A DNA stretch of 64,000 bases from Sipunculus nudus (taxonomy: Eukaryota; Annelida; Sipuncula; Golfingiida; Sipunculidae): NCBI GenBank assembly GCA_026874595.1, contig CM049318.1:25384956-25448955 (forward strand). The letters run 5' to 3'. This document shows, piece after piece, positions 48,001 to 59,746 of the stretch (positions are counted from its first letter, which is position 1; every line of letters begins with the position of its first letter). The notes below the pieces were generated by a model. It saw only the letters and a list, made by a program, of their open reading frames with translations, was not told the DNA's origin and searched no databases. The position numbers and the translations under genes are program-made.

Positions 48001-51000
48001 ATGATTATCTAAAACATATGACCACTTTATCAAGGTCCCATTGGTGGTCCTAATTTTGAGGTTTTACTGTACAGTCTTGTTTTGCAGCTGCCAAGAAATT
48101 GGTAATGCATGTATATACATCTGTCCTATGTATGTATTTTTTATATTAATGTATATGTCTTTCTAATTAATCTATATATGTTTTACAGCTGACAGGAAAG
48201 TGGGAAGGTAGGACAGCTGGAGGGTGTTCTAACTACAGGGACACACACAACAACAACCCCATCTACCAGCTGAAGGTGGACAACAAACTGACAGACAACC
48301 AGGTGCTGGTGGAGCTCAGAGGCCCCAAGTATGTACACTGACTAAATATAAACCTGTCTGTCACTGTGATCCTCACAAACAATAAAATACAATTCTTGAT
48401 CATAAGTGAAAATCTAGATCAGTAACTAAATGAAAATCCAGGTCATATTTAGGCTTGCTTCATGTTTTTTTTTTTTCAAAACTGTTCTCAGCTGTTTATA
48501 TTTAACTTATATCACAGTGGCCTTAGTATGTATCATTGATTTGAGTTTACATGTCATCTTCTCATAATCAGTGAATTTTTAACAGTAAAGTATTGCTTGG
48601 AGACAATAGTTTGTTGGTGGACAATTTAGGCTGAGGGTTATGAGTACTGTTTGTAGGATACCAAAGTTTTGTTTTGCTTTGAAGATATAATCTTTTCAGA
48701 CTCTGAAGCCTTTTAAGTTATGATTAAGTATTTTGTGAGAGTATGTCATTAGTTTCTGTCAGGAAATTTTACTTAATGATTATTACACACTGTATTGTTG
48801 TTATGGACCTTTGACCCTTGTAATTGAACTTTGACCTTTCAGGCAGTACAGCGTTGGGTTTGAGGTTACCACGGTGATGGATAATGTACCAAACTCTCCC
48901 GGCAGCTTCCAGAAGAAATCGACAGGAGGATACAGGTAATGTCCCTCATCTCTTTGTGTTATGCTCTCCTATCTTAACTCCATTTGCTAGTCTAAATTTT
49001 AAAAAAGATAAACTGTATTGTAGTTATACAGTGCCCATATTATGTAATGTGTTGGAACTTCAGTTTTGCTGTTATATAATGTTGACTAATAAGACTTTGG
49101 TCCTCTTAAGCTAAAGTAACCATGTTATATATTGCAGGCAGGGGTTCTGTATGCTGGATGTACAGTTTCAAATTTGTTTTTTTCAAGCAGGGTTTCTGTA
49201 TGCTGTAATATAACTACAATTACCATTTAATATTTCAGGCGAGACTTCTGTGTGCTGTAACTACTGTTCCTGTGTTATATTTTACAGTTGAGGCTTCTGT
49301 GCTATGACTACAATTCCTGTGTTATGTTTTTTTCAGGCAAGGCTTCTGTGTACTGTAACTACAGTTCCTGTGTTATATATTACAGTTGAGGCTTCTGTGC
49401 TATAACTACAGTTCTTGTGTTATGTTTTTCAGGGTAGGCCTCTGTGTACTGTAACTACAGTTCCTATGTTATATATTACAGTTGAGGTTTCTGTGCTATA
49501 ACTACAGACCCTGTGTTATGTTTTTCAGGCGAGGCTTCTGTGTACTGTAACAACAGTTCCTGTGTTATATATTACAGTTGAGGTTTCTGTGCTATAACTA
49601 CAGTTCCTGTGTTATGTTTTTCAGGCGAGGCTTCTGTGTACTGTAACAACAGTTCCTGTGTTATATATTACAGTCGAGGCTTCTGTGCTGTAACTACAGT
49701 TCCTGTGTTATTTTTTTCAGGTAAGGCTTGTGTGTGCTGTAACTACAGTTCCTGTGTTATGTATTTCAGGTGAGGCTTCTGTGTACTGTAACAACAGTTC
49801 CTGTGTTATATATTACAGATGAGGCTTCTGTGCTATAACTACAGTTCCTGTGTTATGTATTTCAGGCAAGGCTTGTGTGTACTGTAACAACAGTTCCTGT
49901 GTTATATATTACAGATGAGGCTTCTGTGCTATAACTACAGTTCCTGTGTTATGTGTTTCAGGCAAGGCTTGTGTGTGCTGTAACTACAGTACCTGTGTTA
50001 TATATTACAGTTGAGGTTTCTGTGCTATAACTAGAGTTCCTGTGTTATGTTTTTCAGGTGAGGCCTCTGTGTACTGTAACTACAGTTCCTGTGGTATTTA
50101 TTACAGATGAGGCTTCTGTGCTATAATTACAGTTCCTGTGTTATGTATTTCAGGCAAGGCTTGTGTGTGCTGTAACTACAGTACCTGTGTTATATATTAC
50201 AGTTGAGGTTTCTGTGCTATAACTACAGTTCCTGTGTTATGTATTTCAGGCGAGGCTTCTGTGTACTGTAACAACAGTTCCTGTGTTATATATTACAGTC
50301 GAGGCTTCTGTGCTGTAACTACAGTTCCTGTGTTATGTTTTTCAGGCAAGGCTTGTGTGTGCTGTAACAACAGTTCCTGTGTTATATATTACAGTCAAGG
50401 CTTCTGTGCTGTAACTACAGTTCCTGTGTTATGTATTTCAGGCAAGGCTTCTGTGTACTGTAACAACAGTTCCTGTGTTATATATTACAGTCAAGGCTTC
50501 TGTGCTATAACTACAGTTCCTGTGTTATGTATTTCAGGCAAGGCTTGTGTGTGCTGTAACTACAGTACCTGTGTTATATATTACAGTTGAGGTTTCTGTG
50601 CTATAACTACAGTTCCTGTGTTATGTATTTCAGGCGAGGCTTCTGTGTACTGTAACAACAGTTCCTGTGTTATATATTACAGGTGAGGCTTCTGTGCTGT
50701 AACTACAGTTCCTGTGTTATGTTTTTCAGGCAAGGCTTGTGTGTGCTGTAACAACAGTTCCTGTGTTATATATTACAGTCGAGGCTTCTGTGCTGTAACT
50801 ACAGTTCCTGTGTTATGTATTTCAGGCAAGGCTTCTGTGTACTGTAACAACAGTTCCTGTGTTATATATTACAGTCGAGGCTTCTGTGCTATAACTACAG
50901 TTCCTGTGTTATGTATTTCAGGCAAGGCTTGTGTGTGCTGTAACTACAGTACCTGTGTAATATATTACAGTTGAGGTTTCTGTGCTATAACTACAGTTCC

Positions 51001-59746: not shown

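Follow-up and report, generated by a model that had tools for sequence, protein, structure and literature searches.

How can a gene be spliced correctly when its last intron consists almost entirely of copies of its own acceptor? This question is raised by the CAPN7 gene, which occupies the plus strand from 30092 to 59746 of the 64,000-nucleotide stretch of DNA analyzed here (the window). The CAPN7 protein model, made of 18 joined exon pieces in which some boundary codons are approximate, contains the Pfam domains MIT (E value, 4.4e-21), Peptidase_C2 (8.6e-45), and Calpain_III (1.2e-15), and its C-terminal part, with exon 17 and the last exon joined, aligns with chain 2qfe_A, Calpain-7 (E value, 2.5e-41). 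The end of the gene is organized in the following way:

48843 to 48935, plus strand: CAPN7 exon 17, whose translation aligns with 2qfe_A
48936 to 59601, plus strand: last intron of CAPN7, 10666 bp, of which ~10477 bp are array
49125 to 59601, plus strand: acceptor-side array of 218 decoy units, from TRF and anchor counts
59602 to 59746, plus strand: last coding exon and stop codon, encoding the end of the calpain C2-like domain

The exon 17 donor reads ATACAG/GTAATG (the slash marks the splice junction), and the junction splits a codon (AG/). The AG of the genuine last acceptor lies at 59600-59601, and the reading across the joined exons agrees with GDYRCGFCYLELENIP of 2qfe_A. The exon at 59602, taken as the real last exon in the initial annotation, is indeed genuine, since once spliced to exon 17 it matches the solved calpain-7 C-terminal domain.

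The array was called by TRF at 49231-59616 (period, 96; 108.2 copies; 88% matches). Anchoring the units on the acceptor and exon start gave 220 anchors, the first at 49136; a match at 59716 falls within the last exon and was discarded as due to chance, so that 218 decoys and the genuine acceptor remained. Spacings among these 219 anchors were 49 bp (110 cases), 47 bp (102), 45 bp (4), 48 bp (1), and 52 bp (1). The initial description of ~215 copies of a ~48-bp unit is right as to an array of boundary copies, with the count amended to 218 and the repeat to a 96-bp dimer of A and B units, which largely alternate. Type A units mostly read TTTCAG/G and type B units mostly TTACAG/T or TTACAG/A, and similarity is 0.894 between a unit and the next but one, against 0.807 between neighbors. 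Each unit is a degenerate copy of the CAPN7 intron/last-exon boundary. In the decoy adjoining the genuine exon, the first 19 exon bases are identical (20/22 overall). As originally described, CTGTAAC in the units stands in place of CTGGAGC in the genuine exon; most units carry CTGTAAC or CTATAAC, while the 5'-most unit keeps CTGGA. At the array edges, the first units diverge and the last decoy shows no visible divergence. Of the 218 units, measured from AG to AG, 93 are distinct, and nested offsets of 384, 1150, 1773, and 2923 bp are present; at the 1773-bp offset, 13 consecutive 96-bp windows are at least 97% identical. A coding array was rejected, the longest stop-to-stop stretch being 159 codons on the plus strand and 43 on the minus strand, and so was a stable RNA fold, since the 243 nt around the last units gave a z score of -1.28 and 26 of 200 shuffles did as well.

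49136 to 49165, plus strand: 5'-most unit, with exon-like CTGGA instead of CTGTAAC
53573 to 56672, plus strand: segment of ~1.3 kb repeated at a 1773-bp offset, including 694-bp and 374-bp stretches that match exactly

At the acceptor position, AG is found in 216 of the 218 decoys, YAG in 215, and CAG in 210. Sought 15 to 45 nt upstream of the acceptor, TNTAAC was present in 206 of the 219 units (the genuine one included) and absent from 13; the distance from its second A to the G of the AG is 27 nt in 203 units, 25 nt in 2, and 26 nt in 1. The strict pattern TNTAAC-N18-24-YAG-NN-R-AGG occurs 193 times on the plus strand of the array, with no occurrence in the other 53.5 kb of the window or on the minus strand, which rules out a chance origin of the signals. 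The looser TNTAAC-N18-24-YAG occurs on the plus strand 204 times in the array and 11 times outside it, and on the minus strand 43 and 8 times, respectively. Between positions -20 and -4, the decoys have 9 to 14 pyrimidines out of 17 and the 14 genuine CAPN7 acceptors scored have 7 to 13, with 11 at the last-exon acceptor, a content that 198 of the 218 decoys equal or beat. The splice matrix was built from these 14 genuine acceptors (leave-one-out scores, -18.6 to 14.0), a number too small to decide much; 2 of 16 acceptors (exons 4 and 6) and 1 of 16 donors were left out of the matrices because the motif was not found. Mean matrix scores were 1.06 for the decoys and -4.06 for all 1129 AGs of 30000-48800, and the genuine last acceptor scored 3.65, a value equaled or exceeded by 20 of the 218 decoys. 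No decoy is identical to the genuine acceptor from -20 to +3. As judged from these scores, the decoys look better than background AGs and mostly not strong, and the genuine site looks somewhat better than most of them. The claim that every unit looks like a usable 3' splice site holds for the core signals and the genuine-like pyrimidine content and is otherwise too strong, because only 16 of the 218 decoys score as high as the median of the genuine acceptors.

The consequences of decoy use can be predicted by translating the junctions. Joined to any of the decoys, exon 17 would yield a protein that ends inside the array (218 of 218), so the full-length protein needs the genuine site; the expectation that upstream acceptors would alter the C terminus is thus upheld, in the form of truncation throughout. 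The tail added is at most 8 residues long in 168 of the 218 joins, the commonest tails before the stop being RQGLCVL (51), R (38), and S (33); the last two reflect decoys of the TTACAG type, which often give an immediate stop. According to the 2qfe_A alignment, such joining would cost the C2-like domain approximately 45 residues at its end. Neither AATAAA nor ATTAAA occurs in the array, and the first such signal after the stop codon is at 60370. Consequently, a decoy-spliced transcript should extend as far as the usual end.

It is important to consider what distinguishes the last exon from the array that precedes it.

59678 to 59689, plus strand: AAGGAAGAAGGA, 12 consecutive purines within the last exon, with a putative enhancer function

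The longest purine run in the array has 8 bases. All-purine hexamers with at least two G's start at 15 of the 10470 array positions and at 7 of 139 in the last exon, the figures being 81 of 2138 for the 17 other exon pieces and 158 of 16541 for the other introns; no such hexamer was found in 3 of the 16 other introns scored. The low purine content of the array is due to its unit sequence and needs no selection. Last exons are recognized with the help of purine-rich enhancers and the poly(A) site. Most likely, terminal-exon definition would be the main means of choosing the genuine acceptor, with the local acceptor counting for less. Local strength may also count, as the genuine site outscores most decoys on the 14-acceptor matrix. 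First-come kinetics would favor upstream decoys, which speaks against this reading. We infer that decoy use is low, with decoy splicing probably minor, corrected, or wasted.

Boundary arrays of this type have a published precedent. In the lancelet, "mirage" minisatellites have been reported for Adh3, troponin C, the globins BflGb6 and BflGb9, and PGBD5; in the accessible text of these reports, they are tandem duplications of an intron/exon boundary, on its 3' or 5' side, with many copies bearing AG or GT signals, and they show concerted evolution and splicing described as undisturbed (PMC3087553, PMC3902484). The initial statement that no gene with this arrangement had been described must therefore be withdrawn, and what remains striking is the scale. 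As in the lancelet mirages, the CAPN7 repeat unit spans its own intron/exon boundary and its copies carry splice signals; its 218 units over 10.5 kb, arranged in a 96-bp dimer, contrast with the 2 to 7 copies given for BflGb6, BflGb9, and PGBD5, and for the PGBD5 repeats the paper itself leaves heterozygosity or assembly error possible. No acceptor array of hundreds of copies was found in the open-licence literature searched. In its anatomy, as read from the sequence of one assembly, the CAPN7 array corresponds to the mirage description.

The best explanation, and in our judgment a probable one, is a runaway mirage minisatellite whose genuine site has been kept by terminal-exon recognition. 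From the array, the exon homology, the decoy anatomy, the stop codons, and the contrast between exon and array sequence, we infer an order of events. A tandem duplication of the intron/last-exon boundary would have copied the branch region, the T-rich stretch, the AG, and approximately the first 20 exon bases. A change of GGAGC to GTAAC in the copies would have created at once the branch-point-like TNTAAC and an in-frame stop, two variants would have formed the 96-bp dimer, and unequal exchange would have driven growth to 218 units. Splicing to 59602 would be held by the whole terminal exon through features that lie beyond the last decoy, namely a poly(A) signal and purine-rich sequence of the enhancer type. 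The exon-like 5'-most unit and the match of the last decoy to 19 exon bases fit copying from the exon boundary, and the 93 distinct units together with the several nested offsets form the pattern expected from unequal exchange. The other two boundary arrays in CAPN7 can also be counted in its favor, as can the published mirages, which share this anatomy and are reported to leave splicing undisturbed.

45831 to 46048, plus strand: donor-side array where exon 13 meets intron 13, six 36-bp units, one of them with the authentic donor
31777 to 32015, plus strand: degenerate array at the end of exon 2 (donor), the authentic copy and six others

In the exon 13 array, every unit carries ACAGACAAG/GTAGGA (AAG/GTAGGA) in frame, and the choice of a later donor would insert 12 amino acids per unit, of the same or nearly the same sequence. 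The exon 2 array, displayed with the exon-side 29-mer, has extra copies with 20 to 28 of 29 positions identical, the best match elsewhere in the window being 18 of 29. CAPN7 thus carries three arrays of the boundary-copy kind. The initial description covered neither the two on the donor side nor the donor sites that overlap some decoys. A scan of 30 CAPN7 boundaries for nearby copies found at least five at 2 of them (the exon 13 donor and the last acceptor) and none at 28, in a setting where the donor coordinates of exons 2, 5, 7, 11, 12, and 15 were off by 1 to 2 nt and the exon 2 array was missed; among 300 random control positions, 11 had at least one copy and 4 at least three.

Other repeats and frames were seen in the window. 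Two repeat clusters on CGCCTAGGCG-type palindromes lie at 38563-40450 (periods of 21 to 28, 49, and 100 bp), and a 22-bp tandem array of 37.6 copies lies upstream of the CAPN7 start (28811-29637). A 31-bp tandem array (8637-9166; 16.8 copies, 75% matches) and a 279-bp tandem repeat (1980-3021; 3.7 copies) were also present, as was a minus-strand open frame of 226 codons (20379-21056), by eye a putative NHL-type propeller.

Three alternative explanations were considered. In one of them, the intron would be a recursive-splicing ladder: joining exon 17 to type A decoys would recreate a donor (ACAG/GTGAGG, ACAG/GTAAGG, or the GC-type ACAG/GCAAGG), so that the intron would be removed stepwise in a self-correcting manner.

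49719 to 59366, plus strand: 16 decoys in which the acceptor abuts a GT donor, resembling recursive splice sites (CAG/GTGAGG in 15, CAG/GTAAGG in 1)

The published form of a recursive site is given as (y)nncag/gtaagt (PMC2773006), and CAG/GTRAGG, which is like it, occurs in these 16 of the 218 decoys and not in the other 202. The recreated donor scores 10.1 to 11.2, versus 8.8 for the original, which is among the 15 donors used to build the matrix. YNYAG/GTRAG is found 16 times on the plus strand of the window, always in the array, and three times on the minus strand, always outside it. Furthermore, GC follows the acceptor position in 101 decoys, with AG before it in 99, and AG/GCAAGG is present in 68. 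Type A units would then act first as acceptor and later as donor, 16 of them with GT and up to 99 with GC, and the spliceosome would step through the array or recover from a decoy. However, 101 of the 218 decoys have neither GT nor GC at the acceptor, the sixth donor base is G and not T, the resemblance to a donor may be incidental, its letters being derived from GCGAGG at the exon start, and the intron measures only 10.7 kb; we regard the ladder as unlikely. If true, boundary arrays would be self-correcting, which would explain their tolerance.

A regulatory role for the decoys, whose competition would make part of the CAPN7 mRNA encode a truncated C2-like domain in a proportion tuned by copy number, appears very improbable to us. 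That all decoys truncate agrees with it, and so does the retention of their AG, the letters of which are altered in 1 of 424 cells versus 87 of the 6564 cells that make up other low-variation columns (212 units, all 49 or 47 bp long, with 6 units of other lengths left out). However, this difference is weak (p 0.043 for all 49- and 47-bp units and 0.088 for distinct units) and anchoring near the AG favors AG, so the column test points to no purging of acceptors and falls short of firmly demonstrating selection for them. In the branch motif, 16 of 848 cells are altered (p 0.21), no better retention than in the other columns, and the lancelet mirages are reported to leave splicing undisturbed (PMC3087553, PMC3902484). 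Expansion of a shorter array by the assembly would account for the ~1.3 kb repeated at 97% identity or more with a 1773-bp offset and 694 exact bp, and one lancelet mirage is described as wrongly assembled in the draft genome (PMC3087553). On the contrary, 93 of the 218 units are distinct, the offsets are many and different, and removing one 1773-bp period still leaves ~180 units, which makes an assembly artifact improbable.

Beyond the mirages, several known systems resemble the CAPN7 array in part. The IFI6 (6-16) minisatellite (Turri et al. 1995) likewise provides tandem units as alternative splice sites, although these are several splice donors and are described as used in vivo (PMC4526556). 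The 31-bp variable number tandem repeat of human CBS also sits on an exon/intron boundary (exon 13-intron 13) and has been tied to lower CBS activity (PMC1395315). Recursive, or ratchet, sites share the AG/GT juxtaposition of 16 CAPN7 units; they are reported to subdivide large introns (PMC2773006), whereas those of CAPN7 are in tandem and are candidates from their sequence. Earthworm metallothionein genes have an intron with 10 to 19 kb of tandem repeats, which the accessible part of the report does not describe as splice-boundary copies (PMC12783039). In Caenorhabditis elegans, minisatellites have been reported near alternative exons (PMC4039745).

More than 200 pairs of branch point and acceptor, with near-equal core signals and placed before one true exon, constitute a natural titration of 3' splice-site choice. 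Such a series could be used to tell the effects of local site strength from those of exon definition and of first-come kinetics, and the AG/GT units could serve to test self-correcting recursive splicing. The array also bears on the idea, put forward in the lancelet work, that mirages can seed new introns (PMC3087553), and it shows what size a boundary minisatellite can reach within a conserved gene.
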